A stretch of 51,613 nucleotides of DNA, taken from positions 1 through 51,613 of the forward strand of contig JAJDGF010000001.1 of NCBI GenBank assembly GCA_030265545.1, in the 5' to 3' direction. The position numbers and the translations under genes are program-made. Shown piece by piece: positions 12,885 through 39,016 of this stretch. How positions within the stretch are numbered: position 1 is the stretch's first letter; the number at the start of each line of letters is the position of its first letter. Below the pieces are notes generated by a model. It had not been told where the DNA came from. It was given only the letters and a program-made list of their open reading frames with translations, and made no database searches. The stretch comes from Eubacteriales bacterium OttesenSCG-928-N13 (lineage in GTDB: Bacteria; Bacillota; Clostridia; Christensenellales; Aristaeellaceae).

Positions 12885-12928
12885 AGCAAGCCAGCCCGGA
12901 GCCGTATGCGGCTCCGGGCTGGCTTGCT
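12885..12928. terminator. Strong bidirectional terminator
   Basis: A perfect 19-base-pair inverted repeat around a GTATGC loop lies between the convergent desulfoferrodoxin and GH32 genes and would end transcription from both. Its half-site begins AGCAAGCCAGCCCGGAGCC. Confidence 0.9.
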
Positions 12929-12937
12929 ATTGTTCCT

Positions 12938-14305: not shown

Positions 14306-14320
14306 GGCGCCTACCTCCAC

Positions 14321-14353
14321 AAAAAAGCGGGGCGAGGGAAGCCCCCGTCCCGC
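14321..14353 (-). terminator. Terminator or attenuator ahead of GH32
   Basis: On the minus strand a 12-base-pair GC-rich stem (10 Watson-Crick pairs, one wobble, one mismatch) is followed by TTTTTTG. It lies between the oxidoreductase and GH32 genes, so it probably reduces read-through. Confidence 0.6.
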
Positions 14354-14364
14354 TCGCTTCTTTG

Positions 14365-15447
14365 TTAGAACCTAGTCTTGATCTTCTTCTCCTGCCCCGA
14401 CTTGGACGACTCATACACGCTCTGGATGATCTCGATCACGTGCGCCTGGCGCGCGATGGAGCAGCCGCCGTCCGCGATGGGCGTGTTGCTCTCGACCGCG
14501 TCCAGGAACGCTTCCACGATGTCCACGTTCAGGTCGCTGGTGTCGGTCTTGATCACGTAGTTGTCACCAAACCCGAGGTATTCGATCGCCTCGCCCTCCA
14601 GCTTCGCGTACGGGGAGAACACCACCACGCGGTGCGCCTCATCACTGAAGTTGATGTAGATTACGCCCTTGGAGCCGTAGATGCGGAAGTCCCAGAAGCA
14701 CACACTCTTGTCGGCCGCGGTGCACCAGTTGGTGCGCAGCGTGGCCTGCATCCCGTTTTCCCAGGACATGATCACCGCGGCGCTGTCCTCCACCGAGGGC
14801 TTGATCGGCTCGCCCTTCAGGCTGACGCGCTCTTTTTGCAGCATCACAGTCTTGCCGTACACGGTATCGACCGGCCCGAACAGGTAGGTAAACATGCTGA
14901 TCGGGTACACGCCCAGATCGGCCAGCACGCCCCACTCGGCCAGCTTCTTGTCAAAGAACCACGGCGCATGCAGCGGGCCCTGGTGCGCAAACACGCCGTC
15001 TGCCGAGTTGACCTCGCCGATCACACCGCTCTGAATCATCTGTTTGACGGTATCCACATGCGGATAGGCGTCGTCCGGCAGCGCCATGAAAATGCCGCCC
15101 GTGCGATTGACCGTTTTGCGGATGCGCTCGGTGTCCTGGGTGTTGGTGCAGATGGGTTTTTCGCACAGCACCTGCTTGCCAGCCTCCAGCGCCTCGATCA
15201 CATACTGCGCATGGGAGGGATGGTATGTGGTCACCACGACCGCCTTCACCGCCGGGTCGTCCAGCAGCTGCTGCCAGCTGTCATACGCCTTCACGCCCAG
15301 TTCCGCAGCGGTCTGATCCATAAATGCACGGTTCATATCGTACAGGCCCACCAGTTCCAACCGATCCTTCAGCTTGGGGTACGAATAGAAATACCGAATG
15401 TGTGCGATGTCTCCGCAGCCCACCTGCGCAATGCCCAGTTTGCTCAT
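14365..15447 (-). CDS. Gfo/Idh/MocA-family oxidoreductase
   Basis: A 360-residue NAD(P)-dependent sugar oxidoreductase. The N-terminal Rossmann fold has the dinucleotide loop QVGCGDIAHIRY and the catalytic CEKP motif at about residues 93-96. The C-terminal domain includes DDAYPHVDTVKQM and GVLADLGVYPISMF. These enzymes oxidise or reduce a sugar hydroxyl, often at C2, C3 or C4. AGGAGG precedes the ATG. It lies between a TIM-barrel isomerase and GH32 in the ABC-importer transcript, and three relatives are in the opposite operon, so successive redox steps on one sugar are likely. Confidence 0.9.
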   Translation of the reverse strand: MSKLGIAQVGCGDIAHIRYFYSYPKLKDRLELVGLYDMNRAFMDQTAAELGVKAYDSWQQLLDDPAVKAVVVTTYHPSHAQYVIEALEAGKQVLCEKPICTNTQDTERIRKTVNRTGGIFMALPDDAYPHVDTVKQMIQSGVIGEVNSADGVFAHQGPLHAPWFFDKKLAEWGVLADLGVYPISMFTYLFGPVDTVYGKTVMLQKERVSLKGEPIKPSVEDSAAVIMSWENGMQATLRTNWCTAADKSVCFWDFRIYGSKGVIYINFSDEAHRVVVFSPYAKLEGEAIEYLGFGDNYVIKTDTSDLNVDIVEAFLDAVESNTPIADGGCSIARQAHVIEIIQSVYESSKSGQEKKIKTRF

Positions 15448-15498
15448 GTTCCATTCCTCCTAGATGTATGTATGATTGCCTTGCGGCGGGCAAATGTG

Positions 15499-16425
15499 TT
15501 AGCCCTCCGCGCCCTCTTCCTTGAGAATCCTTCTCATATAATCGAGCGATTCCTTGACATACTTTTGCGGGTTTGCCAGACCGCCCAGCTCCATTGAGAG
15601 GAAGCCGTTGTATCCCACCTCTTTGAGCGCGCGCACGAACCCGTTCCAGTCGATCACGCCCTGGCCCACCGGATAGCTGTAGCACAACATGCCATCGGTG
15701 TCCCGCAGGTGCACGTGGAAGATGCGCTCCCGAAGCTTGTACACCGCCCAAGGCAGGTATTCGCGCTGCATCATCTGCCACGCGGCGTCAAAGTTGGTGC
15801 CAAAATAGGGGCTGGGAACCCGATCGAATGCGCGCAGCATCGCGTCGGTGGTGCCCATCACCACATTGGCGTGGCCTTCCATCGCAAAGCGGATCTTGTA
15901 TTGCTCGCACAGCGCCACCAGTTTGGCAACCGATTCCAGATAGCGATCCCACAGCCCGGGTGCGTCGTAGTTTTGCGGCATAGAGAGCGTGTGCTTCGGC
16001 TCAAAGTTCTTGAAGCCGGGCATGTACGGGTGGATGGAGAGCGGCGGGTATGAAATGGGCGCCGTGAGCTCCACCGGCCAGTTGGACACGGTGTTGATGA
16101 TGTCGGTGCCCAGTTCCGCCGCCACGTCCAGCCCGCGGTGGAAGATGTCAATCGCCTGCTGGCGCTTTTGGGGATTGGGATCGATCAGCCCGACCACCGC
16201 GTACGCATACAGGATGAACTCGCTCAGCTGCATGCCGTAGCCGTCGATCATGGCCTTCAGGTTCTTGTTGCGTTCGGTGGTGTAGTATTCGTTCAGGTCT
16301 TCCGCCGTGAAAGCGATCAGTTCCAGCCCGTCAAACCCCATTTCGCCGATGGTCTTGACTGCTTCCTCATAGGGGGGTGCATAATGATTGATGGTAAAAC
16401 AACCGACTGCCGCGCCAATTTTCAT
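15499..16425 (-). CDS. Sugar phosphate isomerase/epimerase (xylose isomerase-like TIM barrel)
   Basis: A 308-residue AP-endonuclease-2/xylose-isomerase-like TIM barrel. Typical elements are MGFDGLELIAF at about 26-36, FAMEGHANV with a metal-binding glutamate, GTNFDAAW and IFHVHLRDTD with metal-binding histidines. Relatives isomerise or epimerise free sugars, inosose or ketoses. The ATG at 16425 follows AAGGGAG. It sits between the permease and oxidoreductase genes; pairing with a Gfo/Idh/MocA enzyme is a common arrangement for keto-sugar pathways. Confidence 0.88.
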   Translation of the reverse strand: MKIGAAVGCFTINHYAPPYEEAVKTIGEMGFDGLELIAFTAEDLNEYYTTERNKNLKAMIDGYGMQLSEFILYAYAVVGLIDPNPQKRQQAIDIFHRGLDVAAELGTDIINTVSNWPVELTAPISYPPLSIHPYMPGFKNFEPKHTLSMPQNYDAPGLWDRYLESVAKLVALCEQYKIRFAMEGHANVVMGTTDAMLRAFDRVPSPYFGTNFDAAWQMMQREYLPWAVYKLRERIFHVHLRDTDGMLCYSYPVGQGVIDWNGFVRALKEVGYNGFLSMELGGLANPQKYVKESLDYMRRILKEEGAEG

Positions 16426-16475
16426 TGTTGTGTTCACTCCCTTGTAGATGCCCTTTCGGGCAGTGTTGTGTCGTA

Positions 16476-17363
16476 TCAGCTCTTGACGCCGCCTGCCGTG
16501 AGTCCCATCACGATGTGCCGCTGAAAGAACAGCGCCAGCATCATGGGGATGATGGTCACCAGCACGCCGCCGGTCATCAGCAGCGGGTAGTCCATGCCGG
16601 CAAACTTGTCGCTGAACTCGCTCATCGCCACCGTGAATGTCTTGGTGGACTTGGAATTCATGAATACCATCGCGTATAACAGCTCGTCCCAGCACATCAG
16701 AAACACCAGCGAACCCACCGCGACAAAGCCCGGTTTTGCGAGCGGGATCACCACGCGCACAAATGCATCAAAGTGCGTGCAGCCGTCGATGCGCGCGGCG
16801 GATTCCAGATCGCGCGGGATCGACTGGTAATAGCCGTTGAACACCCAGATCGTGTAGGCCAGCACGTTGGACAGGTACAGCACCACCAGCACCGGCAGCT
16901 TGTCGATCAGGCCGCTCGCCTTGACCATCTGGTACAGCGGAACGATCAGCGCCACCGTGGGCAGCAGTTGGATAAACATTGCCAGCATCAGCATGAACTG
17001 TTTGCCCTTGAATGCCAGCCTGGCAAATGCGTAGGCGGCCATGCCTCCGATGAATAGCGCCAGCGCCGTGGTGGACAGCGTGACCATCACGCTGTTGATC
17101 AGCGCCCGGCTGAACACCTCTGATTTTGAAGAGATCCGCCCGCCGCTCAGCACCTTAGCGAACGAATCAAAGATTTGTTCGTAGCGCTCAAACGTCAGGT
17201 TTTTCGGCAGGGCGAGCGGGCCGGAGTTTAACAACTCCGCCTTGTCCACCACGGAAGAATACGCCATCCACAAAATCGGTATCAGCGTCCAGCATACCAG
17301 CAGCAGCACCGCGATATAGATGCCCACGCCCTTGATGAAGCGCCGCCCAGCAGATTGTCTCAT
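16476..17363 (-). CDS. ABC sugar transporter permease (MalG type)
   Basis: A 295-residue inner-membrane permease with about six membrane segments. The cytoplasmic EAA loop that docks the ATPase reads YQSIPRDLESAARIDGCTHF, the CUT1-family form. The C-terminal segment GGVLVTIIPMMLALFFQRHI is typical of MalG-like partners. It pairs with the permease 15 bases upstream. No ATPase gene is in the operon, so a shared housekeeping ATPase (MsmK/UgpC type) elsewhere in the genome is likely, as is usual in Bacillota. Confidence 0.93.
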   Translation of the reverse strand: MRQSAGRRFIKGVGIYIAVLLLVCWTLIPILWMAYSSVVDKAELLNSGPLALPKNLTFERYEQIFDSFAKVLSGGRISSKSEVFSRALINSVMVTLSTTALALFIGGMAAYAFARLAFKGKQFMLMLAMFIQLLPTVALIVPLYQMVKASGLIDKLPVLVVLYLSNVLAYTIWVFNGYYQSIPRDLESAARIDGCTHFDAFVRVVIPLAKPGFVAVGSLVFLMCWDELLYAMVFMNSKSTKTFTVAMSEFSDKFAGMDYPLLMTGGVLVTIIPMMLALFFQRHIVMGLTAGGVKS

Positions 17364-17378
17364 TGCTCATTCCTCCCC

Positions 17379-18293
17379 TTATGACGGGTCATCGGTGTGC
17401 AGCACCTTGAGGTACAGCACGGCAATCAGTAGAATGATCACCGATATAGCCACCGACAACGTGGCGCCCGTGCCATAGTTCAGGTTCTTGAAGATCGCGT
17501 AGTACGTGTAAAAGCTGATGGCCATCGTGCCGTTTCCGGGGCCGCCGCCGGTCATCATGAAGATGATGTCGAACACCTTGATGGTCTGTGTGGTGCGCAT
17601 GATGAGCAGCACCAGCAACAGCGGTTTCATCAGCGGCAGCTTGATGTGCCAGAACCGCTGAAATGCGTTGGCGCCATCCACGATGCCCGCCTCGATGGTG
17701 GATGCGTCGAGCGTCTGCAGCGCCGCGAGCAGCAACAGCACCGTCAGGGGAAGCATGCGCCAGGTGTCGGCCAGGATGATCATGTTGAGCGCGGAAAAGG
17801 CGGTCGCCATCCACACCACGATCTCCTTGATCACGCCCCACTGCAGCAGCACGCGGTTGAGCAAACCATAGTTCGCGTTCAGGATCCAGCCCCAAATCGC
17901 GGCATTGACCATGCTGGGAACCGCCCAGGGCAGCAACACAATCGCGCGCACAAACCCACGGCCCTTAAACTCCATGTTCAGCAGCAGCGCAATCAATGTG
18001 CCCAGCACGGTCTGCACCACCAGAGACACCACAGCGAAGTAGCCTGTGATCAACAGCGAATTGCCAAAGCCCTTGTTGGTGAACACTTCCACAAACTGGC
18101 GCACACCGGCAAAACCGTTCTTGGCCGTGTCCAGCAGGTTGTACCAAAAGAAGCTGAGTCCCACGTTGTACAACAGCGGATACACGTTCATGCCCAGTAT
18201 GATCACCATCGCAGGTGCGATCATCAACATGGCTGTGCGGCGCACAGAGGCCTCTCCGATGTACGCACCGCGCATCTTTTTCATTCGTCTCAT
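17379..18293 (-). CDS. ABC sugar transporter permease (MalF type)
   Basis: A permease of about 304 residues with six predicted membrane segments, the first near residues 20-40 after a short basic N terminus. The EAA loop reads LQTLDASTIEAGIVDGANAF and is followed by RFWHIKLPLMKPLL. It forms the channel with the downstream MalG-type protein. The start is the ATG at 18293 or the GTG just before it. A large hairpin separates it from the binding-protein gene, which would let the binding protein be made in excess. Confidence 0.92.
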   Translation of the reverse strand: MRRMKKMRGAYIGEASVRRTAMLMIAPAMVIILGMNVYPLLYNVGLSFFWYNLLDTAKNGFAGVRQFVEVFTNKGFGNSLLITGYFAVVSLVVQTVLGTLIALLLNMEFKGRGFVRAIVLLPWAVPSMVNAAIWGWILNANYGLLNRVLLQWGVIKEIVVWMATAFSALNMIILADTWRMLPLTVLLLLAALQTLDASTIEAGIVDGANAFQRFWHIKLPLMKPLLLVLLIMRTTQTIKVFDIIFMMTGGGPGNGTMAISFYTYYAIFKNLNYGTGATLSVAISVIILLIAVLYLKVLHTDDPS

Positions 18294-18390: not shown

Positions 18391-19635
18391 TTAGAACTTC
18401 GCAGACCACTCTTCGGCAGCCTTGAGCGCCTCATCCACACTCATGGTGCCCGCCAGCGCCTGGTTCAGATAGGACTGGAACTGCGCCGACCACTCGCTGT
18501 ACGCGGTGACCGTGGGGCGCTTGGTGGAGTAGTTGTACTCGTCTGCCATCACGGCAAACTCGGGGTTGGCCTTGAGCAGTTCTTCGTCCGCCAGCACCGA
18601 TTTGAGCACCGGCATGTTGCTGTAGGATTCGAGCGCATCCTTCTGGATGTCATAGGACACAGCCAGCTTCAGGAACTCAACCGCATGCTCGGGGTACTTG
18701 GTGGTATAGCTCACGCCCAACCCGCCGCCGCCAGTGACGGAGCCGGTCTTGGTGCCGTTGGCGCCGGGCACCAGCGCGATGTCCACATTGCCCGCGATGG
18801 TGGAGTTGTCAGGATCATTACAAAAACCGTATGCATAGGACCAGCACAGCACAAACGCGATGTCGCCCGCCATGAACGGATCCAGCACAACGCGGTCGCT
18901 GTAGGTGGAGGAGGCGGGATCTGCCCAGCCCTGCTTGGCGCCTTCCACCATGAAGTCCAGCGCCTGCTTTCCTTCCTCGCTGTTGAATGTCCACTTGCCA
19001 TCGGCATCCTGCCACGCGCCGCCAAAGCTGTCGAGCAGCACGCCGAACTCGCACACCACGCCTTCGGCCTGCAGGCCCGACCAGGCGATGCCGTACTTGC
19101 AGATGCCCTTGTCCACGACGGCCTTGCTCATCTCGGCCAGTTCATCCCAGGTGGTCGGCGCATGATCGTAGCCCGCCTGCTCCAGGTACGCCTTGTTATA
19201 GAACAGCCACTTGGAGTTGGTCAATGTCGGCACACCGGCCAACTCGCCGTTGATGGTGAACTCCTCGACATAACCGGGGAACAGCGCGTCCAGCTCTTCC
19301 TGCGAGAAGTACTGGGTCACCGGCTGTGCGATCTTGGCGGACAGGAACTCGGCCGGCCAGATCGTATCCACCGAGAACAGATCAATCTGCGTGCCACCCA
19401 GCACCATCGTTGTGATCTTGTCGTGCATGTTGTCGTAGGCCACATCAATGATTTCCACGTCGATGCCGTACTTCTCGTAGAACTTGTCCGCAACCATTTC
19501 GTACTGGGCCAGGCAGCCGTTGTCGGTCACCAGGATCAGTGTTTCGGGCTTTTCGCCTTCGGCGAAAGCCACCATGCAACACTGGGATGCCAGCAGTGCG
19601 ACAACAAGAGCCAGGCAGATTAAGGTCTTCTTCAT
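18391..19635 (-). CDS. ABC transporter sugar-binding lipoprotein/protein (family 1)
   Basis: A 414-residue extracellular solute-binding protein. The N terminus MKKTLICLALVVALLASQCC is a signal peptide; the CC near residue 19-20 could be a lipobox-like attachment site, although the following residues are not classical. Ligand-binding family motifs include DLFSVDTIWPAEFL, GVPTLTNSKWLFYNK and TTWDELAEMS. It captures sugar outside the membrane for the two permeases downstream. GAGGAGGG precedes the ATG. It is the first gene of the leftward operon, behind a promoter region carrying the regulator-type half-sites. Confidence 0.93.
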   Translation of the reverse strand: MKKTLICLALVVALLASQCCMVAFAEGEKPETLILVTDNGCLAQYEMVADKFYEKYGIDVEIIDVAYDNMHDKITTMVLGGTQIDLFSVDTIWPAEFLSAKIAQPVTQYFSQEELDALFPGYVEEFTINGELAGVPTLTNSKWLFYNKAYLEQAGYDHAPTTWDELAEMSKAVVDKGICKYGIAWSGLQAEGVVCEFGVLLDSFGGAWQDADGKWTFNSEEGKQALDFMVEGAKQGWADPASSTYSDRVVLDPFMAGDIAFVLCWSYAYGFCNDPDNSTIAGNVDIALVPGANGTKTGSVTGGGGLGVSYTTKYPEHAVEFLKLAVSYDIQKDALESYSNMPVLKSVLADEELLKANPEFAVMADEYNYSTKRPTVTAYSEWSAQFQSYLNQALAGTMSVDEALKAAEEWSAKF

Positions 19636-19763: not shown

Positions 19764-20612
19764 TTACTGGTGTAGCTCGCGGTACTCGGTGGGCGTCACG
19801 CCGCAGTGCTGTTTGAACACCCGATTAAAGTAGGTAACGTTGTCAAACCCGACATTCATCGCAATCACCGTAACCTTCTCCGCGGTGATCAAAAGCTGTG
19901 CCTTGGCTTCGTTGATACGCACGCTGTTGACATATTCCGAGAACGTTTTGCCCATCACGCGCTTGAACAGTTTGCAAAACCGCGCGCTGCACATATACAA
20001 CATTTGGGTCATCTCGCTGAGGCGGATGTCGTTTCGATAGTTGGTGTGCACGTACCGAAGCACCGGCTGGATCAGGTCCATTTCGCGCTGGCGCTCCGCG
20101 AAAGAATATGTCATTTCGATGTGTTTTTGCTGGAACAACAGCGCAAACAGGCACAGGATCATCGCGTGCGCGCGCAGCTCAAAACTGAGATCCTTATTCC
20201 AGTAAGCGCTTGAAAATTCGTCGAAAATCTGAAGCAGAGGATCGCCATCCACCAATTGAATCTTACGTGTAAACGCCACTTCATTCTCGAGAAAGGCCTT
20301 GAAATACTTGACATTCGCGTAATCCATACTGGGAGGGCACAGAAGCTCATTCGTTACCTGCAGCACGTCCCAGCTCGCGCCGCGCGTGAGCGGCTTGGTC
20401 TGGTGCGGCTCCTTGGCATTGATGATCACCAGTTCGTTTGGGCCGCACTCGAACGCCTCGTCCATCAATTCGACGGAGTATCTTCCTTCGCGCCCCAATA
20501 GCAGCTCCAAGTGATTGTGCCAGTGCAGGTCGGAGCCGTAGTCGACCGTCGCAAGTGCAAACGGGAGCTGCAGCCCACGTTCCTTGAAATACAAATAGGG
20601 TTGAAAAAACAT
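19764..20612 (-). CDS. AraC-family transcriptional regulator
   Basis: A 282-residue regulator. The N-terminal cupin-like sugar-binding domain includes WHNHLELLLGREG and ELVIINAKEPHQTKPL. The C-terminal AraC double helix-turn-helix spans about 175-282 (SARFCKLFKRVMGKTFSEYV, then GFDNVTYFNRVFKQHCGVTP). It lies between the two divergent catabolic operons and is the obvious local regulator. GGAGGGATGATCGC precedes the ATG. Its own promoter carries a palindromic operator at the start site, which suggests autoregulation. The inducer is unknown but is probably the imported sugar or a pathway intermediate. Confidence 0.93.
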   Translation of the reverse strand: MFFQPYLYFKERGLQLPFALATVDYGSDLHWHNHLELLLGREGRYSVELMDEAFECGPNELVIINAKEPHQTKPLTRGASWDVLQVTNELLCPPSMDYANVKYFKAFLENEVAFTRKIQLVDGDPLLQIFDEFSSAYWNKDLSFELRAHAMILCLFALLFQQKHIEMTYSFAERQREMDLIQPVLRYVHTNYRNDIRLSEMTQMLYMCSARFCKLFKRVMGKTFSEYVNSVRINEAKAQLLITAEKVTVIAMNVGFDNVTYFNRVFKQHCGVTPTEYRELHQ

Positions 20613-20923: not shown

Positions 20924-21748
20924 ATGAAGAGGCTGCCCATTGGATATCAGCTGTACTCAGTCCGCGAGGAGGCGAGGCGCGATTTCCCCGGTACGCTGTC
21001 GCGCATTGCAATGATGGGCTACGATGGAGTGGAATTGGCCGGGCTGCATGGTCTTTCCGCCTCGCGCGCTCGCGGGGCACTGGATGAGTGCGCGCTGACT
21101 GCGATCTCAAGCCATGTGCCGCTGGACGCGATCAGGGCCGATCCGAATCAGGTGATCAAGGACCATCTGACGCTGGGTTGCCAATACATCGCGGTACCCT
21201 TTTTGGATGAGCCGGGCCGGCCCGGCATGCCTGGATTCGCTCGCACGCTGCGCCAGATGATCGAGTTCGGCTCGATGTGCCAGGATGCAGGAATCCAGCT
21301 CTTGTACCACAATCACGACTTTGAATTCGTGCGGGTGTCCGGTCAGTATGGGCTGGATTTCATGTATGATTGCATGCCAGACCGGCTGCTGATGGCGGAG
21401 CTGGATACCTGCTGGATCAAGTACGCCGGAGAGGATCCGGCCGACTATGTGACCAAGTACGCCGGGCGCTGTCCGGTGGTGCACCTGAAGGACTACGTGG
21501 GCACGAACACGGGTGGGCCCGCGCCCTATGCGCTGATCTCGGCGGATGGTGGCGCGACGGGCGGAGACGCTTCGGAATTTGAATTCCGCCCGGTCGGTCA
21601 CGGCTGCCAGGACATTCCGTCCATCGTGGATGCCTCGATCAACGCGGGGGCACATTGGTTTGTTGTCGAACAGGATCTGTCGGTCGGCCGCACGCCGCTG
21701 GCGGCAGCCAAGCTCAGCATCGAGTACCTCAAGCACATCGGACAGTGA
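20924..21748 (+). CDS. Sugar phosphate isomerase/epimerase (TIM barrel)
   Basis: A 274-residue xylose-isomerase-like TIM barrel, first gene of the glycyl-radical operon. Typical parts are IGYQLYSVREE at the N terminus, MMGYDGVELAGLHG at about 30-43, LLYHNHDFEF with the metal-site histidines and a glutamate, MAELDTCWIKYAG and VVHLKDY. The profile is close to enzymes annotated as inosose dehydratase or hydroxypyruvate isomerase-like epimerases. The ATG at 20924 follows GAGG at good spacing; an upstream ATG at 20876 lacks such a site. It differs clearly from the isomerase of the leftward operon, so the two probably catalyse different steps. Confidence 0.88.
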   Translation: MKRLPIGYQLYSVREEARRDFPGTLSRIAMMGYDGVELAGLHGLSASRARGALDECALTAISSHVPLDAIRADPNQVIKDHLTLGCQYIAVPFLDEPGRPGMPGFARTLRQMIEFGSMCQDAGIQLLYHNHDFEFVRVSGQYGLDFMYDCMPDRLLMAELDTCWIKYAGEDPADYVTKYAGRCPVVHLKDYVGTNTGGPAPYALISADGGATGGDASEFEFRPVGHGCQDIPSIVDASINAGAHWFVVEQDLSVGRTPLAAAKLSIEYLKHIGQ

Positions 21749-21784: not shown

Positions 21785-22918
21785 ATGGGTAAGAAGTATC
21801 GGGTAGCTGTTATCGGTACCGGCATGATCGCCAACGCGGCGCACATTCCGGCCTACAAGTTCTGGAAGGACGACTTCGAGCTGGTGGCCTGTGCCGACAT
21901 TCGGAAGGACGCCGCCCAAGAGACGGCGGATCGGCATGGCATTCCCAAGGTATACCAGGACGCCTACGCGATGCTGGAGGAGGTGCGCCCCGATTTCGTA
22001 TCGGTGTGCACGCCCAACGCGTTTCATAAGGAGTATGCACTGGCGGCGTTCAAGGTGGGTGCCAACGTGTTCTGCGAGAAGCCGCTGGCGCTGAAAAGGA
22101 AGGATGCCATCGAGCTCTACAAGGCGGCGGACGAGGCCGGCGTGCACCTGTTTGTGACCCAGAGCCTGCGCTTCCTCACCAACTATAAAGAAGCCAAGGA
22201 GCTGGCGCAAAGCGGCGAACTGGGCGAGGTCTATTATGCCGATGTGGAGCTGATCCGGCGGCGCGGCATTCCCAAGTGGGGCATGTTCCACATCAAGGAA
22301 AAGAGCGTTGGCGGCTGCTTCTGCGATCTGGGTGTGCACATCACCGACTACATCATGTACCTGACCGGAAACCCCAAACTCAAATCGGTCTCGGGCAGCG
22401 CGGTCACCCGCATCGTGCACCAGCCGTCCGAAAAGGGCGTGCGCTATTCGATCGCCGAGAGCGGCGCACCCTCCGGGCTGTTTACGCCGCGCCCGTTCGA
22501 TATGAATGAGTTTGACGTGGAGGAATTCAGCAACGGCTATATGCGTTTTGAGAACGGCATGACGGTCAACTTCAAGATCTCCTGGGCGCTCAACCTGCCA
22601 AACAGCGAGTGCGTGCGGCTGTCAGGCGACAAGGGCGGTCTGGTGATGAGCAACTCGGGCGACGCGGTCAAGCTCGTGACGACGATCGGCAGCAACCAGG
22701 CGGATTTGACCCCGCGCATCTTCCCCGACCCGTACCATGAGGCGTCCGATTTCTATGGGCACATCCACGTATTCGAGCACGCGCTCAAGTTCCTCAAGGG
22801 CGAACAGGATGAGGTCATCAAGCGCGAGGAAGTGATCAATGTGGCTTCCGTGATCGAGGCGTTCTACAAATCGGCGCAGCTGGGACGCGAAGTGAGCTTT
22901 GAGGAATTGGAACAATAA
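21785..22918 (+). CDS. Gfo/Idh/MocA-family oxidoreductase
   Basis: A 377-residue NAD(P)-dependent sugar oxidoreductase. The Rossmann loop is VIGTGMIANAAHIP, the catalytic motif FCEKP is at about residues 98-102, and VGGCFCDLGVHITDYIMYLT in the C-terminal domain carries the conserved aspartate and histidine of the active site. GGGGAGG precedes the ATG. It is the first of three consecutive paralogues, which share their fold but differ widely in sequence, so a gene family built for successive or alternative sugar oxidations is likely rather than a recent duplication. Confidence 0.92.
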   Translation: MGKKYRVAVIGTGMIANAAHIPAYKFWKDDFELVACADIRKDAAQETADRHGIPKVYQDAYAMLEEVRPDFVSVCTPNAFHKEYALAAFKVGANVFCEKPLALKRKDAIELYKAADEAGVHLFVTQSLRFLTNYKEAKELAQSGELGEVYYADVELIRRRGIPKWGMFHIKEKSVGGCFCDLGVHITDYIMYLTGNPKLKSVSGSAVTRIVHQPSEKGVRYSIAESGAPSGLFTPRPFDMNEFDVEEFSNGYMRFENGMTVNFKISWALNLPNSECVRLSGDKGGLVMSNSGDAVKLVTTIGSNQADLTPRIFPDPYHEASDFYGHIHVFEHALKFLKGEQDEVIKREEVINVASVIEAFYKSAQLGREVSFEELEQ

Positions 22919-22949: not shown

Positions 22950-24077
22950 ATGAAGCAGTATCGTGTTGTAATCATCGGTTTTGCGCACATGCACATCAAC
23001 GATGTCGCCAGCCACTTTTATGAGAATCCGCGCACTGAGCTGGTGGCCTGCGCGGACACCGTGCCCGCCATGCCCGAACTGCGCGCCGCGCCCTACACCC
23101 GCGCGTGGAACAAGCGCTTTTGCATGGACAACTTCAAGATTCCCCGCGAGTACCAAGACTACCAGGAGATGCTCGACAAGGAGAAGCCGGATATCGCGAT
23201 TGTGACCAGCGAAAATGTGCTGCACCGCGAAATTGTGGAGCAGTGCGCGCGCCGTTCCGTGCATGTCTGTGTGGAAAAGCCGATGGCGGTATCTCTTTCC
23301 GACGCGTTACAGATGCAGCGCGCCGCCGAACAGTACGGCGTGAAGCTGCTGGTCAACTGGCCGATCACCTGGTTGCCCGTGTACCGCACCCTGAAGCAGA
23401 AGCTGGACGAGGGCGCGATCGGGCGGCTGATCGAATTCAAAATCCGCACCTCACACACCGGCCCGCTGGGCGCGGGCGCCGCCCACAAGGGCGTGAACGA
23501 GACCGCCCAGCCCATGACCGGCCAGGAGAAGGCGCACACATGGTGGCACCAGCTGAACCGGGGCGGCGGCGCGATGTACGATTTCTGCTGTTACGGCAGC
23601 ATGCTCAGCCATTGGTTGGCCGACCAGGAGGCCCAGTCCGCGTTCGGGCTGCGTGCCAACCTGATGAGCCAGTTCGGCGACGCGGACGACACCGCGGTGA
23701 TGGTGGTGCGCTTCCCAAACTGCGTGGCGTTGATTGAAACCAGTTGGACCACGCCCAAAGAACTCATTCCCTCCAACATCCCCATGCTGTACGGCACGGA
23801 AGGCGCGATGACGCTGGTCAATGTGGATGGACGCGACGCGGTGAAGGTGCTTCGGCCCAACCAAGAGGACGCGCTGTTCTTTACGGACGAGCCCGCGCAG
23901 AAGGATCGGGACATCGCCTGCGCGTTCGTGCATCACCTGGACACCGGCGAGGAGGTGCATCCCACGCTGTCGCTGAAGCGCAACATCTCCGCAATGCGCA
24001 TTCTGGACGCGGGCGTGCGCTCGGCGGGCTCGGGCCAGCAGGAAATGACGGCCAGCGAATACTGGCAGATCGGCTGA
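22950..24077 (+). CDS. Gfo/Idh/MocA-family oxidoreductase
   Basis: A 375-residue family member with VVIIGFAHMHINDVA at the nucleotide loop (GFAHMH instead of the usual GxGxxG, a subfamily variant), VCVEKPMAVS as catalytic motif and GGGAMYDFCCYGSMLSHWL in the second domain. The ATG at 22950 follows AGGAGG. The HMH sequence near residue 11 is seen in a subgroup of these enzymes and may point to an unusual cofactor or substrate setting. It lies between two paralogues in the glycyl-radical operon. The precise reaction is not readable. Confidence 0.88.
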   Translation: MKQYRVVIIGFAHMHINDVASHFYENPRTELVACADTVPAMPELRAAPYTRAWNKRFCMDNFKIPREYQDYQEMLDKEKPDIAIVTSENVLHREIVEQCARRSVHVCVEKPMAVSLSDALQMQRAAEQYGVKLLVNWPITWLPVYRTLKQKLDEGAIGRLIEFKIRTSHTGPLGAGAAHKGVNETAQPMTGQEKAHTWWHQLNRGGGAMYDFCCYGSMLSHWLADQEAQSAFGLRANLMSQFGDADDTAVMVVRFPNCVALIETSWTTPKELIPSNIPMLYGTEGAMTLVNVDGRDAVKVLRPNQEDALFFTDEPAQKDRDIACAFVHHLDTGEEVHPTLSLKRNISAMRILDAGVRSAGSGQQEMTASEYWQIG

Positions 24078-24102: not shown

Positions 24103-25212
24103 ATGAAGCATCAATTTGCGGTGCTTGGGCTTGGACACTGGTACAGCGCGTATCCGCTGATTGGCGCGATCCAATCCCTGCCCGATACCCAGGTGAAATG
24201 GATCGTGGACGAGAACATCGGCCAGGCCCGGCAGACTGCGCGCATGTTCAGTGTGGAACGGCATTCCGCCGACTACATGGACGCGCTTCTGGATCCAGAG
24301 GTGGACGCGGTGCTGATCGCAACGCCCACCTACCTGCACGAGCAGCTCGCGGTGGATGCGGCCCGGCACAAAAAGCACATTCTGCTGGGAAAGCCGGTGG
24401 CACGCACGCTGGCAAGCGCCGAGCGCATTCGCCAGGCGGTGAAGCAGAGCGGTGTGACGCTGCTCGGATACGGCGCCGGGCCCAACCCAACCGACCCGCT
24501 GATTCAGCTTGTGCGCGAGGGCACGGTGGGCACCCCCTACGCGGTCACCAGCTCGTTTCGCGCCAGGCTTCCGCTCAGGGCGCCGGGCGACACGGATCCG
24601 GGCTGGTTCGTGGATTCGGGCAAGGCGTCCGGCGGTGCATTCATCGATCACGCGATCTACATGGCTACGCGCATGCGCGCGCTGTTTGATAGCCCTGCCA
24701 AGAGCGTGTATGCGCGCATGCGCAAAATGGCGCGGCCAGAGCTTCAGGTGGAGGACTATGGCGTGGCGATCATCGAGTATGAGAGTGGTGCGCTGGCCAC
24801 GGTAGAGTCGAGCTTTGGCGCGACCGAATACTCCCAGACCGCGCTGGTACTCAGCGCCACCCAGGGCGAAATCGGCATCACAGACGACGAGTTGCGCATC
24901 ACGCGTGGGCGCGAGAGCCGCATCACCAAGCTTACCGGCCCCAATCCGGTGCTGCTCACCATCGCGGATGTGATGCGCGATCCGTTCGGTGCGAGGGAGA
25001 CCGGGTACTATCAATCGGTGATTCAGGAGTTTGTGGACGTGATCGACCATGGCGCGCCCAGCCTCAACACGCTTGAGAACGGAATTGAAGGGCTGATGGT
25101 GTGCCTGGCCGCCTACAAATCCCTTGAGATCGGGCAACCGGTCGCGCTGCCGCTCAAGGAGGACGTGGACGTGCAGTCCATCATGGGAAGGCTGGATGTA
25201 TTTCATGGATAA
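24103..25212 (+). CDS. Gfo/Idh/MocA-family protein with altered EKP motif (GKP)
   Basis: A 369-residue member with VLGLGHWYSAYPLI at the nucleotide loop. Its catalytic motif reads LLGKPVART, so the conserved glutamate of EKP is glycine while the lysine remains. The second domain (SGGAFIDHAIYMATRM) keeps aspartate and histidine. The lysine normally acts in proton relay, so activity may be retained; the glutamate loss could alter pKa or substrate choice. The last 17 bases overlap the start of the activase gene, so translation is coupled to the radical enzyme system. Confidence 0.88.
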   Translation: MKHQFAVLGLGHWYSAYPLIGAIQSLPDTQVKWIVDENIGQARQTARMFSVERHSADYMDALLDPEVDAVLIATPTYLHEQLAVDAARHKKHILLGKPVARTLASAERIRQAVKQSGVTLLGYGAGPNPTDPLIQLVREGTVGTPYAVTSSFRARLPLRAPGDTDPGWFVDSGKASGGAFIDHAIYMATRMRALFDSPAKSVYARMRKMARPELQVEDYGVAIIEYESGALATVESSFGATEYSQTALVLSATQGEIGITDDELRITRGRESRITKLTGPNPVLLTIADVMRDPFGARETGYYQSVIQEFVDVIDHGAPSLNTLENGIEGLMVCLAAYKSLEIGQPVALPLKEDVDVQSIMGRLDVFHG

Positions 25213-26044
25213 CGCGAGCTGCACTGGCATTGTCACCGACATACAGCGCTTCAGCGTGCACGATGGATTTGGCATCCGCACCTCGGTGTTTTTGAAGGGC
25301 TGCAACATGCGCTGCGCCTGGTGCCACAACCCGGAGACCATCTCATTTGAACCCGAACTACTGCTGGATCCGGCCAAATGCATCGGGTGCGGACAGTGCG
25401 ATCAGGGCTGCTATTCTGGCGCGCGGCGGCTGGTGGGGCGAGAGATGAGCGCAGAGAAGGTGATGCGCGAGGTATTGATGGATCGTGCCTACTACGAGGG
25501 CGGAGGGGGCATGACATTGACCGGCGGCGAGCCCAGCTGCCAGTCCGATTTCGCACGCGGCCTCATGCAATTGGCGCGCCAAGAGGGCATTCATACCGCC
25601 ATCGAAACCAACATGAGCCTGCCTGTGGACCTGTTGTTTCCGGTGTTGTCGCTGTGCGATTTGCTGCTGTGCGACGTGAAGCTGTGGGACGAGCAGGCGC
25701 ATCAAAAGTGGACCGGCGTGGGCAACAGGCTGATCCGCAGCAACATACAGGCCGCGGACGAGTTGAACATCCCGATCGTGGTTCGGACCCCGCTGGTGGC
25801 GGGTGTAAACGATGAGCCCGAGCAGATCGGCGCCATCGCGCAGTTCGCTGCGGGCCTCAAGAACCTGCTGGCATATGAGCTGCTGCCCTATCATGCGCTG
25901 GGCACCGCCAAGTTGATTGAAGGGGCTTCGCCGCAACAGCGGTTTGAGGCGCCGGACAAGCAGCGCATATTGCGCCTGGCACAGGCGGCGCGCGAGGCGC
26001 GCGTGCCCGTGCGTGTCGCTGGTGTTGCGCTGGAAGGAGTGTGA
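25196..26044 (+). CDS. Glycyl-radical enzyme activase (radical SAM)
   Basis: A radical-SAM enzyme of about 282 residues that uses a 4Fe-4S cluster and S-adenosylmethionine to place the glycyl radical on its partner. The cluster motif CNMRCAWC is at 36-43. One auxiliary ferredoxin-like motif, CIGCGQCDQGC at 62-72, is present, where many activases have two. TLTGGEP at 107-112 is the SAM-binding GGE region. Two starts are possible, ATG 25196 (GGGAAGG four bases upstream) and ATG 25205; both overlap the preceding gene. The partner gene starts four bases after its stop. Confidence 0.93.
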   Translation: MYFMDNASCTGIVTDIQRFSVHDGFGIRTSVFLKGCNMRCAWCHNPETISFEPELLLDPAKCIGCGQCDQGCYSGARRLVGREMSAEKVMREVLMDRAYYEGGGGMTLTGGEPSCQSDFARGLMQLARQEGIHTAIETNMSLPVDLLFPVLSLCDLLLCDVKLWDEQAHQKWTGVGNRLIRSNIQAADELNIPIVVRTPLVAGVNDEPEQIGAIAQFAAGLKNLLAYELLPYHALGTAKLIEGASPQQRFEAPDKQRILRLAQAAREARVPVRVAGVALEGV

Positions 26045-26048: not shown

Positions 26049-28253
26049 ATGGCCATCACGGATCAGGAGCGCTACCGGGCGTTGAAGCAGACCAAACTGA
26101 ATCACACCCGCGAGAAATGCGCGCAGCAGGGCTACATGGATGCCGATGACTACGGCTCTGTGCCGCTGCCCGACGGATACAAGTTTGTGCCCATTCCGCC
26201 GGATGGAGACTTCTATGGCTACGCGGGCTGGGCGGAGAATTTCGAGGCGTTTATTGACAACCACCCGGTCTATGTGGATCGGCTCGAGCTGCTGTGTGGG
26301 CGCTGGTGCGACAAGCTGACCGCCTATCGCAAGCCCGATACGGACGTGCCGCTGGAGCAGCGCGCGTTCCCGGGCGATCGGTTCCCCTACGACGAGCTGC
26401 TGGCGCCGGTGTATCTGTATGGGCTGGACACCGCCATCGGTTCGGACACCCACTTCTGTTCGGACTACCGCATCGGTCTGCGATTGGGCTGGGGCGGGTT
26501 TCTAAAGGCCATTCGCCAGGGTCGCGTGCGGCACGCGCAAGACCCGGAAAAGCGCGCGTTTTACGATGCCGAGGAAAAAACTGTGCTTGCGATCCAGCGC
26601 TGGATCGCAAGGCACATCGCCGAGATCAAGCGACTGCTGGTCGCGGAGCAGGATCCGGCGCTCAGAATCAGCCTGCAAAAGATGCTCGAGTGCAACCGGA
26701 ATGTGATCGAAAAACCGGCGTCGAGCTTCCTGGAGGCGTGCCAGTACATGGCTTGGTTCAACAGCGTTTCGCGCATGTACGACCGGGATGGCGCGGGCTG
26801 CGATCTGGATCAGATCCTGCTGCCTTACTATGAAAAGGACATCGAGCGTGGCGTGCTCACGCGGGATGAGGCGCGATTCATCCTGGCCAATCTGTTGCTG
26901 GTCGACACACACTACTATCAGCTGTCCGGATGCGACCTGGACGGGAATGACATGACCAACGAGCTGTCCTACCTGACGCTGGAGGCTGCGCACGAGCTGA
27001 ACATCGCGGCCAACCTGACCGTGCGCTACCACCGCAATATTGACCCCGACTTCTTCCGGCAGGCGGTGGCCTACAACTTCAACGATCGCAACGGCTGGCC
27101 GCGCTTTTCTGGGCACGAGGGTATGATGAAATACCTGAACAACCAGGGCATCGACCAGGCTACGGCACTCGAACGGATCGCAGTGGGCTGCGGCTGGAGC
27201 GCGGTGCCCGGGCGCGAGCTGCCGCTGAACGATTTGGTCAAGATCAACTGTGCGCGCGTGTTCGAGGTGGCGCTCAATGAGATGATGCTGAGCGCCGCCG
27301 AAGCGCCGAAGGACGTGTATTATCCCGCGTATGAGCCCAGCCTGGAGCGGCTGAGCCATCTGTTCAAAAAACACCTGGCGCGCGCGGTGGATGGCCTGGC
27401 GAAGTGCCTCGAGTTCCACCTCAGCCACATGCACCAAGTAATGCCCGAGCTGGTGATGAACCTACAGATGCGCCACTGCATTGAAGAGGGGTTGAATGTG
27501 TCGCAGTGCGCCGAGCTATATACGCTGTGCGTGGATGGCGTGGGCCTGGGCACCGTGGCCGATTCATTCGCCGCGATCGAGCAGCGCGTGGTCGTCGAGA
27601 AAAAGCTCAGCTGGGAGCAGCTGTTCCATGCGCTGCGCACCAATTTCAAGGATGATGAGCGCACTCGGCTGATGCTGAAGAACTCCGAGCGCTACTGCCA
27701 GGGCGGAAGCCTGGGCGACAAGTGGGCCGAGGCCGTCACCCAAGACTTCACCGCGCTTGTGCGCGCGCAGCCGATGAGCGAAGGCAAGCAACTGGTGCCC
27801 GGCTGGTTTTCCTGGTCCAAGACCATCCATTTTGGACAACAGGTGGGCGCCACGCCCAACGGCCGCGGAGCCTACGAACCGCTCACCCACGGCGCCAATC
27901 CCACGCCCGGCTTCCGGCGCGACGGTGCGCCCACCGCGCTCGCCAACGGCATCGCGATGGTGCAGCCCGGCTACGGCAATGCTGCGCCGCTGCAGATTGA
28001 GTTTGATCCCAAAATCAGCGCCGAAGAGGGTGGCATCGAGCGCGTGGCCCAACTGATCAAAGGGCACCTGGACCAGGGCGGCACGCTCATCAACATCAAT
28101 GTGCTGGACAGGGATGTGCTGATGCAGGCGCACGAGAATCCGGACAGCCACCCCGATTTAGTGGTGCGCGTAACCGGGTTCACCGCCTATTTCTGCACGC
28201 TTTCTCCTGAGTTTCGCCAACTGGTGGTGGATCGCTTCCTCGACGGACTGTGA
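26049..28253 (+). CDS. Glycyl radical enzyme (PFL family), unusual active-site motif
   Basis: A 734-residue glycyl radical enzyme. The radical site is RVTGFTAYF with Gly710, close to the usual RV.GY. The thiyl-radical cysteine should be Cys381 in VGCGWSAVPGRE. In the dehydratases, lyases and decarboxylases I know, this loop reads GCVE with a catalytic glutamate two residues on; here tryptophan takes that place, and it is not the PFL pair CC either. The N-terminal PFL domain is otherwise complete. AAGGAG precedes the ATG and the activase is adjacent. No microcompartment genes accompany it. It may belong to an uncharacterised class acting on a sugar derivative; substrate and reaction are unknown. 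Confidence 0.93.
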   Translation: MAITDQERYRALKQTKLNHTREKCAQQGYMDADDYGSVPLPDGYKFVPIPPDGDFYGYAGWAENFEAFIDNHPVYVDRLELLCGRWCDKLTAYRKPDTDVPLEQRAFPGDRFPYDELLAPVYLYGLDTAIGSDTHFCSDYRIGLRLGWGGFLKAIRQGRVRHAQDPEKRAFYDAEEKTVLAIQRWIARHIAEIKRLLVAEQDPALRISLQKMLECNRNVIEKPASSFLEACQYMAWFNSVSRMYDRDGAGCDLDQILLPYYEKDIERGVLTRDEARFILANLLLVDTHYYQLSGCDLDGNDMTNELSYLTLEAAHELNIAANLTVRYHRNIDPDFFRQAVAYNFNDRNGWPRFSGHEGMMKYLNNQGIDQATALERIAVGCGWSAVPGRELPLNDLVKINCARVFEVALNEMMLSAAEAPKDVYYPAYEPSLERLSHLFKKHLARAVDGLAKCLEFHLSHMHQVMPELVMNLQMRHCIEEGLNVSQCAELYTLCVDGVGLGTVADSFAAIEQRVVVEKKLSWEQLFHALRTNFKDDERTRLMLKNSERYCQGGSLGDKWAEAVTQDFTALVRAQPMSEGKQLVPGWFSWSKTIHFGQQVGATPNGRGAYEPLTHGANPTPGFRRDGAPTALANGIAMVQPGYGNAAPLQIEFDPKISAEEGGIERVAQLIKGHLDQGGTLININVLDRDVLMQAHENPDSHPDLVVRVTGFTAYFCTLSPEFRQLVVDRFLDGL

Positions 28254-28816: not shown

Positions 28817-29489
28817 ACTATCGTTGTCCAATACTCCGTTGCTGCGGGACCATCAAGCACCTTGTCGAGTTGGTTTGTCAAGGTTAAGGGTGGAGATTTT
28901 CGAGCCATACGGATGATCGAAAATACTACCCGGCCTTGACAAGGAGCCAGGAGGATCATGGGGAGCGGGGTTTGAGCACACCTGTGCCAAACCCCTTGAT
29001 TGCCCGTTCCCCCCTAACCCCATCGTGCCTTCACGCTGCGAATTTGGCCCGGTATATCCTCTCCGGCGTTCGCCCGCCAAGACTCTGATGCGGTCGTTCG
29101 TGGTTGTAGGTGTCCACATATTCGCGAATCCCCATCCGCAACGCACGGGGTGATTCATACTCGTTGATGTAAATGTCCTCCCACTTCAGGCTCCGGAACC
29201 ATCGCTCGATTATTACGTTATCAACCCACCGGGACTTCCCGTCCATGCTCTGTCGGATACCGTTCTCGCGCAATCGTGCGGTGTATTCGTCACTCGTGAA
29301 CTGGCTGCCCTGGTCCGAATTGATGATTCCGGGGATGCCGTGCAACCGCATCGCTTCCTTTACCGCATCCAAAACCGGCGCGGTGTCCAGCGTATCGCTC
29401 AGCGCCCAACCGACGATATACCGGCTGTGCCAATCGATGATTGCCGTCAGATACATGTGTCCACGCCGCATCTTGATGTAGGTAACGGA
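28785..29489 (-). mobile_element. IS3-family element, 3' portion only
   Basis: From the terminal sequence TGTCCCCCCTTGTCAAG at 28785 the element carries about 245 non-coding bases and then the C-terminal part of its transposase. At about 29489 the similarity stops and unrelated sequence begins, so the 5' half is deleted. A second TTGACAAG lies inside near 28935. Confidence 0.65.
29031..29489 (-). pseudogene. IS3-family transposase OrfB, C-terminal fragment
   Basis: The C-terminal 150 or so residues of an rve-type integrase core: TYIKMRRGHMYLTAIIDWHS, VGWALSD, NSDQGSQFTS with the second acidic residue, ERWFRSLKWEDIY with the catalytic glutamate and YNHERPHQSLGGRTP near the end. The sequence breaks off just before the first aspartate (the D of D[VI]TYI), and the open frame upstream of that point is unrelated. 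It cannot be active. Confidence 0.85.
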
Positions 29490-29700
29490 AGTACAACCTC
29501 TCTCCGGCAGACACAGATGGCTTTGAGACCATCGCCCAGAAGGTCGAAGCGGAGGTCTCTCGCGCACATGCCAAAGGCAAGACCGATGCCGATGTGACGG
29601 TGTACGAGAACGCAGTGGTTGCCGCCGCGAAGGGCATGGCCGCTGTCAATGCGCAGATCGATGCGGAGTATGACAAGCAGCTTGCGTTGATGGAGATGGT
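29489..29700 (+). pseudogene. Unidentified gene fragment between two IS remnants
   Basis: The frame starts right after a TAA at the IS3 junction and reads a helical, charged, protein-like sequence (YNLSPADTDGFETIAQKVEA, later VAAAKGMAAVNAQIDAEYDK) that runs without a stop into the IS5 transposase. It has no start codon of its own with a ribosome site. I do not recognise the family; the composition would fit a phage structural or DNA-associated protein. Confidence 0.45.
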
Positions 29701-30663: not shown

Positions 30664-33600
30664 TTAGGGGAGACTCCCGTTAACGTTTGTGAGATTATGG
30701 CTCGCCGAGGCGCGGTACGCGGCCTCCTGCACCGTCAGCTCCACCAGCATTACCTGCATGGTTTCGGGGTCGGGGTATTGTGAGATGGCAAAGGCCAGCT
30801 GGATGGTAAATGCGCCGGAGAGCCGCACGTCCTGCACGGTGATCTCCTGCAGGCTTTCCTCTATGGTGAAGGCCTGCTCTCGCCCGGTGGTCTTGTCCCG
30901 CACCGTCAGGGTGTAGGGCTCAAACTCCGGGTAGCCACCGGCGAGATCCGAGGTGGATAGTAGCATGGTCACATCGGTCTTTAGGCCGACGGGATCATCC
31001 ATCAAGAAGGCACAGACCATCTCCTCGCCCAGCGCCTTCAGACCCCAGCCGTTTGAAAAATCGGCGTTTTCATAGGTGAAGGGATAGGCCGTCACCTTCT
31101 CTTCCTCGAAGGTGGAAAGGGAGTATTGCGTGCCCAGCTTCAGAATCGTGGCGCCTGCGTTCTGGTCCAGATAACTCTCGGTCTCTATTTCCACCACGGT
31201 CAACTTCATGATAGCCGGGTCGGGGTAGCCCGAGAAGGACAGGGCGAGCCGGATGGAGGCGTCCTGGTCTACCGTCACGTTATCCAGCTTCACTGTCTTG
31301 CGGCTTTCATCCACGGTGAAGCCGACTGCGTGACCCGAAACCTCGTCCCGCACTGTCAGCGTGTAGGGATCGAATGCGGGATACTCGCCCGTCAGCGCCG
31401 AGGTGGAGAGCACCAGCGTGGTGTTCAGCTTCTGGCCGGGTGCTTCCTCCACGCTGAAAGCAAGGCGCATCTCCTCGCCCAGCGCCTTCAGACCCCAGCC
31501 GTTCGAAATGTCGGCACCGCTGTAGTCCAGCGGTGTGGCCACGGTTGTTGCGCCGTCCTTTTTCTTGTTGGTGGCCAGGGAATACCGTGTGTCCACCGAC
31601 AGCGGAGTGGCGCCGCTTTTCCCGGATAGCCGGGGCAAAATCTCTATCAGCACTACCTGCATGGTCGTCAGATCCGGGGGTTGGGCTAAGGAGAAGTGCA
31701 GCTGGATGCTGGCGCTCTCGCTTACAGTAACCCCCGCCAAGGAGATCTCCGGTCGGCTTTCCTCGATGGTGAAGCTGGCGGAATGCCCCGACAGTTCGTC
31801 CCGCACCGTCAGCTCATAGGGCTCGAACTCGGGGTAGCCGCCCGTCAATGCCGATGTGGATATTCGCAGAGCCAAATCCAGCACCTGTCCCGGCTCGGCG
31901 TCTACCTGGAAGGAGACGCTCATCTCCTCGCCCAGGGTGCGCAGGCCCCAGCCGTTGGTAAGGTTGGCGTTTTCAAAACTCAACGGGTATGCGACGTTTG
32001 CGTTTTCCATCAGGGTGGACAGCTGGTACTGCGTGTCCATCCTCAAGAGCGTGGCGTCGTACTCCTGCACCACCTGCACTTCCTCCACCAGCATCAGCTT
32101 CGTCACGTCGGCGCCCTCGTACACCTCCATGACTTTGCCGTCCATCAGCCGGCTGCGCTGGCCGGGCAGGTTCTCCGTCAGGCTGTCCAGGCTCTCGCCC
32201 TCCAGGTGCAGCCCGGTCAGAAAATCACGCAGATACAGGTTGCTGGTGGGCGCATCCGAAACGGTGAAGTCTCCGGTGCTGCCCGCAGGCTTCACCAGCA
32301 GCGAGGCATGCCGGGCATAGCCCTGATTTTCACGGCTGGCGTCCCATAGCCTGTCGCCATGGTCCCCCAGCAGGACGATGGTGGTGGTGTCGTACAGGCC
32401 GCTGTCCTTCAGGGTCTGCATCAGCGCCTGCACGTAATCCAGCGTCCAGGTGCTTTGCTCATGCAGGCCATGCAGGGTGCCCTGCTCCTCGGTCGGGAGC
32501 GGGTTGCCCTCGCTGTCTATGGTGTAGGGCATGTGCGCCCCGTTCACGTGGTGGAAATGGAAGGTGGGCTGGCTGCTGCTTTGGGCACGGGCGGCCTCCA
32601 TCAGCACCAGGTAAGCGGTCTCGTCTTCGTTGGCCTGGGGCACACCCTGCAGCGCCTGTAGGTTGCCGCCGGTCAGATGCTCGGTGGTCTCCACCACGCC
32701 GGAGATCGTCGCCCGGCTGGAAACTTCATTTTTCAGCGCATAGGGCGCAAACCGCACCCAAAACTGATGGTACAGCCCTTCGTCAACCGTGATGCTGCTG
32801 CGGGTAGCGCTTCTTTCGCTGGCCTCGCTGAGCATGTAGCAGTTGTATAGGGGCAGTGTGGAGGATGCGTATACGTCATACCCCCGCTCAGAAAAGATCT
32901 GCGTCGCCGCTTCCGGCACGTCAAACACGGCACTCTGATATCCTATCACGGAGCCGCCCGTATAGATATCCCCCTTGATCATGGAAGGCAAAGCCCACTG
33001 CGTGCTGCTGGCCGTCTCCATGTTGTTCTGGAAAAGGGTGAACCCGTTGAAGGTATCCTCCGCCTCCGGGTTTTCGGCCAGATAGTCCTGGACGACTGCG
33101 GTGGAGGTCGCATCCAGCACCAGAACCAGCACATTGTCCTCGCTGCTGAACGCCACCCGATCCAGCACCTCGCTTGCGGTCGTGTCTATCGCCCTGGTCT
33201 TTACCTCTTGGTTGATGGCGGCGTCGGCCAGACCCAGGCCCAGCAGCAGGCACGCCCCCAGCAGCAAAAAGGCATAGTTCCCCGCCAAGCGCCGCCAGAA
33301 AATGACGCCCAGCGCCAACACCAGCAGCCACACCAGGGAGTCCCAGACCATGCGGGGCACAGAGTCGAAGATGTCGCTGGCGCCGGTGAGCGCCGGCAGG
33401 TCACTGCTCAGGGGGTTGCCCTCCAGCCAGATGCAGAACACAAAAAGCACCAGCACCACGTGGAAAACCGAAATCAGGGCCCCACGCTTGGGGCTTTCGA
33501 AGCAGAGCCGGGACGCCTTGGCATGCAAAAAGCCGGACAGCAGCGCCAGCACCACGCCCAGCAGCACGGTGAGCAGCAAAAAGGGAATCAGCAGCCCCAG

Positions 33601-33762: not shown

Positions 33763-33822
33763 GGAAGGTCTCTCCTTTTGAGGGGGGTGGTAGTCCGCCT
33801 TGGTGTGTGCGCCGGGGTTCGG

Positions 33823-35040: not shown

Positions 35041-35044
35041 ATCA

Positions 35045-38919: not shown

Positions 38920-39016
38920 TGTCTCCTCATACTGTGCGGCTGTCCGCCGGGCACTCGTCTCATCATTTTTGCAGGCGCTGCGCAGCGTGTGCGGCGCGCC
39001 CATACCCTCTTGCCCG

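Follow-up and report, generated by a model that had tools for sequence, protein, structure and literature searches.

A subfamily of glycyl radical enzymes with an invariant tryptophan in the cysteine loop and Gfo/Idh oxidoreductase genes as frequent neighbours

A glycyl radical enzyme (GRE) encoded by Eubacteriales bacterium OttesenSCG-928-N13 belongs, as judged from sequence, to a distinct and uncharacterised subfamily of the known GRE superfamily, in which a tryptophan occupies the position of the loop glutamate. The subfamily is a new variant inside that superfamily and is absent from the literature searched. The analysis covered a stretch of 51,613 nucleotides, referred to as a whole as the window, and established the clade, its loop motif, its gene partners and the predicted fold. 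The gene neighbourhood of the clade points to keto-sugar chemistry. Our preferred reading, to which we give a little less than even weight, is that the window enzyme is a C-O lyase whose substrate is an anhydro- or keto-pyranose without phosphate, possibly one of manno configuration.

GREs are oxygen-sensitive radical enzymes responsible for a large share of the difficult C-O, C-N and C-S bond breakage in anoxic guts; which reaction a GRE catalyses is usually deduced from its cysteine loop. Eliminase GREs have a catalytic glutamate in the motif GCxE, and pyruvate formate-lyase (PFL) has a Cys-Cys pair. The large subfamily described here, termed GCxW, is common among bacteria of herbivore guts. 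It breaks this rule, having a tryptophan that never varies, and is linked to keto-sugar enzymes. If its members act on anhydro- or keto-sugars, they would constitute a new radical route in herbivore-gut carbohydrate breakdown and would test the need for the glutamate. The earlier note on this DNA had drawn attention to a GCGW loop and proposed a separate class of GRE with a different reaction on a sugar derivative, an interpretation that our analysis partly supports.

The gene is a single uninterrupted frame (Table 1), and its product has the features of the superfamily: a finger-loop cysteine, both domains (Pfam PFL-like, 5.8e-89, and Gly_radical, 1.4e-15, each above its gathering score), the GRE barrel fold and an activase gene nearby. 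Cys381 sits in VGCGWSAVPGRE, and in an alignment with PflB, PflD and YbiW of E. coli and with CutC, HypD and HPAD, the thiyl cysteine of every reference falls in its column, which confirms the earlier assignment and rules out a thiyl cysteine elsewhere. Trp383 occupies the glutamate column wherever the reference has GCxE, so the protein lacks the signature of the GCxE eliminases, whether dehydratase, lyase or decarboxylase. The glycyl site RVTGF is intact at Gly710, as the earlier note had read it, and matches the pattern RVxG[FWY]. The retained glycine also rules out an aminoacyl radical enzyme, in which Ala, Ser or Thr replaces Gly at the radical site (PMC11528403). Assignment to PFL was ruled out as well, since GCGW holds one cysteine and no adjacent Cys pair.

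Membership of a characterised family was ruled out by scores: against the NCBIfam models for HypD, CutC, HPAD, IAD, HpsG and PFL the protein fell far below every cut-off, its best equivalog match reaching 230 bits against a cut-off of 1000. HypD (trans-4-hydroxy-L-proline dehydratase) and CutC (choline lyase) resemble it in fold and radical sites, and HypD also has a glutamate nine residues past the cysteine. Both, however, carry GCVE, and the window GRE scored 190 bits against the HypD cut-off of 1100 and 147 against the CutC cut-off of 1050.

A scan of the genomes of 84,980 species returned 453 relatives, the best 80 of which were retained. These 80 come mostly from uncultured Oscillospiraceae, Lachnospiraceae and other Clostridia, many of them from ruminant, deer and poultry guts, and also include Planctomycetota, Lentisphaeria, one Bacteroidales, one Paenibacillus and one Chthonomonas. 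GCxW GREs also occur on plasmids of Persicobacter and Flammeovirga. Within the host's order, relatives at 37-48% identity were detected, and those with a readable loop show GC[HNS]W. In a maximum-likelihood tree of 59 rows, the 22 GCxW sequences formed one group (support 100, on a stem of 2.0 changes per site) separate from HypD, CutC, PflD, YbiW, HPAD and PFL; four further rows labelled as clade are second GREs from the same loci and lack the motif. The window protein thus lies in a clade of its own, outside every characterised family tested by score or tree, as the proposal of a separate class had anticipated. In four loci (L045, L066, L076 and L077) the GCxW GRE has a second, non-clade GRE nearby; in two of them, L076 and L077, a single activase gene lies between the pair, and the loop of the second GRE reads GCGE.

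The loop that unites the clade is not the one by which the window protein was first noticed. Among 47 aligned sequences the motif is GC[N/H]WMx[VIL]PGxE[F/Y]..ND, of which the window copy reads GCGWSAVPGREL..ND. C381, W383, P387, G388, E390, N394 and D395 are invariant (47/47). Position 382, by contrast, is N in 33 sequences, H in 13 and G in the window alone, so the class is marked by GC[N/H]W, and GCGW is confined to the window protein: the glutamate is indeed replaced by Trp383, and the separate cluster exists, but GCGW is not its signature. The window copy is also alone in having S at position 384 (M in 45) and L at position 391 (F or Y in 45). When the loop was searched for as a DNA pattern, 26 of 391 genomes of the host's class matched, some of them with two loop types (N..EF and H..EY), and a reversed control pattern matched none. 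This, together with the invariance of Trp383, argues that the tryptophan is not there by chance.

The departures at 382, 384 and 391 raise the question of whether the window copy, as a paralogue that is altered or in decay, has lost the activity of the clade, and its 11 deviations over the 167 columns in which at least 95% of relatives agree are the joint maximum of the set. We consider such decay very improbable, because the frame, the invariant loop residues, both radical sites and the activase are all kept and its branch in the tree, at 0.42 against a median of 0.4, is of ordinary length. With frame, domains, radical sites and activase intact, the enzyme is predicted to be catalytically competent.

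Loss of the glutamate is not confined to the clade. In the alignment of the reference panel, three uncharacterised GREs (L008, L146 and L153) have the loops GCSQ, GCVV and GCTQ, and the missing glutamate therefore defines no reaction class by itself. To judge from the alignments, what marks the clade is the invariant tryptophan together with Glu390, rather than the mere absence of the loop glutamate. Other polar positions are retained: H135 and D395 of the window GRE align with conserved positions of GREs of the B12-independent glycerol/propanediol dehydratase type. In glycerol dehydratase (GDH) we take their counterparts to be H164 and D447, with E435 corresponding to W383, and H281/S282 to A249/G250. 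The likeness to these dehydratases thus extends to fold, cysteine position and the first two residues, whereas the glutamate and the H281/S282 pair differ and the window protein has 734 residues against about 787.

The AF2 model of the window GRE (mean pLDDT 88.6, pTM 0.91) shows the full GRE fold and matches GRE structures along its whole length by Foldseek and VIA-align. Its closest structures are dehydratases and lyases. PflD ranks first by VIA (Z 35.6 and 35.5, rmsd 3.0-3.1, 686 residues aligned), in a tie with many eliminases, since ranks within Z 1 count as ties; for this reason the nearest structural neighbour was discarded as proof of function. A profile of the clade searched against the PDB also found PflD as the best match (1.6e-84, 288 bits; the next match had 266 bits). 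These data bear on the somewhat unlikely alternative that the enzyme is an ordinary dehydratase or eliminase of the diol-dehydratase type, acting on a sugar or polyol by the usual chemistry in a rearranged pocket, with Glu390 or Asp395 replacing the glutamate. The nearest structures, the retained fold, H135 and D395, and an invariant glutamate nine residues past the cysteine all speak for it. Yet Glu390 has no known catalytic counterpart; HypD has a glutamate there besides the one in its GCxE. The change of H281/S282 to A249/G250 means that the pocket differs at more than one place. The earlier view that the usual dehydration is unlikely stays a conjecture, as equivalents of H135 and D395 are kept, Glu390 is invariant in the loop and other uncharacterised GREs lack the glutamate too.

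PflD and YbiW of E. coli cleave 1,5-anhydromannitol-6-phosphate and 1,5-anhydroglucitol-6-phosphate, respectively, to 1-deoxyfructose-6-phosphate (PMC12441222). The window GRE shares their fold, PflD has an aspartate at the D395 position of its loop, and a sugar-derived substrate is expected for the window GRE too. In contrast to the window protein, PflD and YbiW have GCVE or GCIE, are only about 20-22% identical to it and lie in a separate clade, so membership among the anhydrohexitol-6-phosphate lyases is not indicated. The genetic setting differs too: the PflD gene is grouped with PTS genes, and the window GRE gene with an ABC transporter and oxidoreductases.

The window operon runs, on the forward strand, from an AtOGE-like TIM barrel through three Gfo/Idh oxidoreductases (A, B and C) to the activase and the GRE, with a regulator and a transporter operon diverging from it (Table 1).

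Table 1. Features of the GRE operon and its divergent neighbours, with positions in the window
Feature	Position	Strand	Evidence or remark
Fourth Gfo/Idh/MocA oxidoreductase	14365..15447	-	
Second xylose-isomerase-like TIM barrel	15499..16434	-	PF01261 4.4e-38
Two sugar ABC permeases (17379-18293 and 16476-17363)	16476..18293	-	clusters 5 and 6; sequence inspection
Sugar ABC transporter solute-binding protein	18391..19635	-	
AraC-type regulator, divergent from GRE operon	19764..20612	-	
Xylose-isomerase-like TIM barrel, homologue of O-glycoside beta-eliminase AtOGE	20924..21748	+	8bvk, 1.9e-33
Gfo/Idh/MocA oxidoreductase A, DgpA-like (glycoside 3-dehydrogenase)	21785..22918	+	7xr9 1.1e-46, full length
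Gfo/Idh/MocA oxidoreductase B	22950..24077	+	best match of genes in 44 other loci
Gfo/Idh/MocA oxidoreductase C	24103..25212	+	best but weak PDB match 1,5-anhydro-D-fructose reductase 2glx, 1.9e-18
GRE activase, radical SAM, CxxxCxxC present	25196..26044	+	TIGR02494 273 bits vs cut-off 174; directly upstream of GRE
GRE, GCxW clade, 734 aa	26049..28253	+	translation, Pfam, NCBIfam, tree, AF2 model
Active-site cysteine loop, residues 380-395 GCGWSAVPGRELPLND (Cys381, Trp383, Glu390, Asn394, Asp395)	27186..27233	+	alignments
Glycyl radical site RVTGF, residues 707-711 (Gly710)	28167..28181	+	translation, alignment

By sequence homology, a DgpA homologue and an AtOGE homologue are thus adjacent genes in the window. 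DgpA oxidises glucosides at C3 (PMC11239390), and 8BVK is an O-glycoside beta-eliminase whose product is 2-hydroxy-3-keto-glucal (PMC10628242). The region resembles the operons of DgpABC in PUE and of AtOGE in A. tumefaciens in having a DgpA-like Gfo/Idh protein, an AtOGE-like TIM barrel, further Gfo/Idh proteins and a second TIM barrel; no GRE is mentioned in the excerpts describing those operons, whereas the window operon ends with an activase and a GRE. Four clade loci (L103, L104, L117 and L119) have, close to their GRE, a gene with 61-63% identity to oxidoreductase A. Oxidoreductase C is not claimed as a true 1,5-anhydrofructose reductase, as several Gfo/Idh families give similar E-values. 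The divergent transporter operon is closed by a GH32 beta-fructosidase (12938-14305, reverse strand), which may be part of a separate sugar pathway. Just downstream of the GRE gene lies a transposase integrase core domain (rve; 29031-29567, reverse strand), which suggests that an insertion sequence lies where the operon ends. Beyond it, an exopolysaccharide-like cluster (30664-40594, reverse strand) encodes a sulfatase-fold protein, an MBOAT acyltransferase, a GT2 glycosyltransferase with a PilZ domain and a CotH protein.

The association with oxidoreductases recurs across the clade. In the clustered set of clade loci, a gene of the activase cluster was found in 71 loci and a Gfo/Idh gene in 53. 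The A-type oxidoreductase was the best match in 47 loci and the B-type in 44, and A-B-activase-GRE is a frequent gene order. Of the 74 clade loci that span 11 kb or more, 56 gave a match to a Gfo/Idh HMM, as did 1 of 20 control loci around other GREs in the relatives' genomes. The comparison tilts towards the clade, whose own neighbours supplied the sequences for the HMM, and its control comprises 20 loci only. The AtOGE-like gene appears in few other clade loci, and several clade loci are without Gfo/Idh genes. The sugar setting proposed earlier is borne out by neighbours related to keto-sugar enzymes.

The neighbourhood may nonetheless mislead. The GRE could take an imported sugar or polyol directly, while the Gfo/Idh enzymes, though controlled by the same regulator, serve a glycoside pathway that runs in parallel. 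In the two annotated marine Bacteroidota operons (L130 and L131, on the Persicobacter and Flammeovirga plasmids), the GRE and activase genes stand beside GH47 with a cupin-like gene behind the GRE, and no Gfo/Idh genes were found near the GRE, which implies that Gfo/Idh enzymes may not supply its substrate. These mannosidase-linked operons and the other loci devoid of Gfo/Idh are what such independence would predict. Set against the Gfo/Idh match in 56 of the 74 loci, often in the order A-B-activase-GRE, we find it quite unlikely. The Flammeovirga plasmid region adds GH92, GH130, sulfatase and SusC/D-type genes, and other clade operons hold a D-lyxose/mannose isomerase with a PfkB kinase, ROK proteins or ManA-like isomerases. 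The GH47, GH92 and GH130 genes and the isomerase partners hint, weakly, at manno-configured sugars.

We infer radical formation, substrate, reaction and residue roles from these motifs, the fold and the gene partners. The upstream activase would install the radical on Gly710, from which it would pass to Cys381. The substrate is probably an unphosphorylated sugar delivered by the glycoside-oxidising enzymes of the operon (the DgpA-like 3-dehydrogenase, the AtOGE-like beta-eliminase and the other Gfo/Idh proteins), and good candidates are a keto-sugar or a 1,5-anhydrohexitol like that of PflD minus the phosphate, perhaps of manno configuration. Abstraction of a ring hydrogen by the thiyl radical would be followed by breakage of the adjoining C-O bond, leaving the sugar opened or deoxygenated. 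Trp383 would probably serve as a stacking platform for the pyranose ring; His135 and Asp395 are possible acid/base residues, and Glu390 a possible new one.

This C-O lyase reading is favoured by PflD being the best match of the clade profile and the top, if tied, structure, and by its cleavage of 1,5-anhydromannitol 6-phosphate (PMC12441222), as well as by the frequency of Gfo/Idh genes relative to the control loci, the DgpA-like and AtOGE-like neighbours and the manno-type partners. Against it count the tie in structural rank, the tree, in which the clade is not nested with PflD and YbiW, the GCxE glutamate that both of these retain, and the scarcity of the AtOGE-like gene in other loci. A manno substrate is not favoured by the behaviour of the characterised D3dgpA, which did not act on galactosides, rhamnosides or glucuronides (PMC11239390).

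Breakage of a C-C bond was weighed as well. PFL shares the superfamily and likewise has no loop glutamate, and a PFL-like lyase, in which attack of the thiyl radical on the keto group of a Gfo/Idh-made keto-sugar splits a C-C bond, would suit the adjoining keto-forming enzymes. We hold this to be improbable, since the window loop has a single cysteine whereas PFL needs its Cys-Cys pair, and PFL is among the more distant GREs both by tree and by structure (Z about 28 against 35).

Within C-O cleavage, a more specific and rather unlikely proposal is that the subfamily dropped the glutamate because a DgpA-like dehydrogenase pre-oxidises the substrate to a keto-sugar, whereupon C-O cleavage would follow directly with the tryptophan stacking the ring. 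A radical beside a ketone is semidione-like, with a hydroxyl of sufficient acidity that no base is required, so with a keto-sugar substrate the glutamate would not be needed. If true, the GRE would give anaerobic gut bacteria a radical branch in the oxidative breakdown of glycosides. The literature searched, from which subscription journals are mostly absent, yielded no paper that places a GRE in a keto-glycoside pathway.

Three further sequences deserve mention. The 892-aa open frame of L158 exceeds the HPAD cut-off (1314 against 1150 bits), yet its cysteine loop, GCLAVAP, is without the GCxE glutamate. L118 contains, at 11549-16486, one 1645-aa open frame with RhaT, GH92 and GH28 domains, either a real fusion or an artefact of assembly or gene calling. 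The very divergent GRE of L024 (end branch 2.97) has the aligned loop PCNWPN, possibly a second origin of a tryptophan two residues past the cysteine, or a misalignment.
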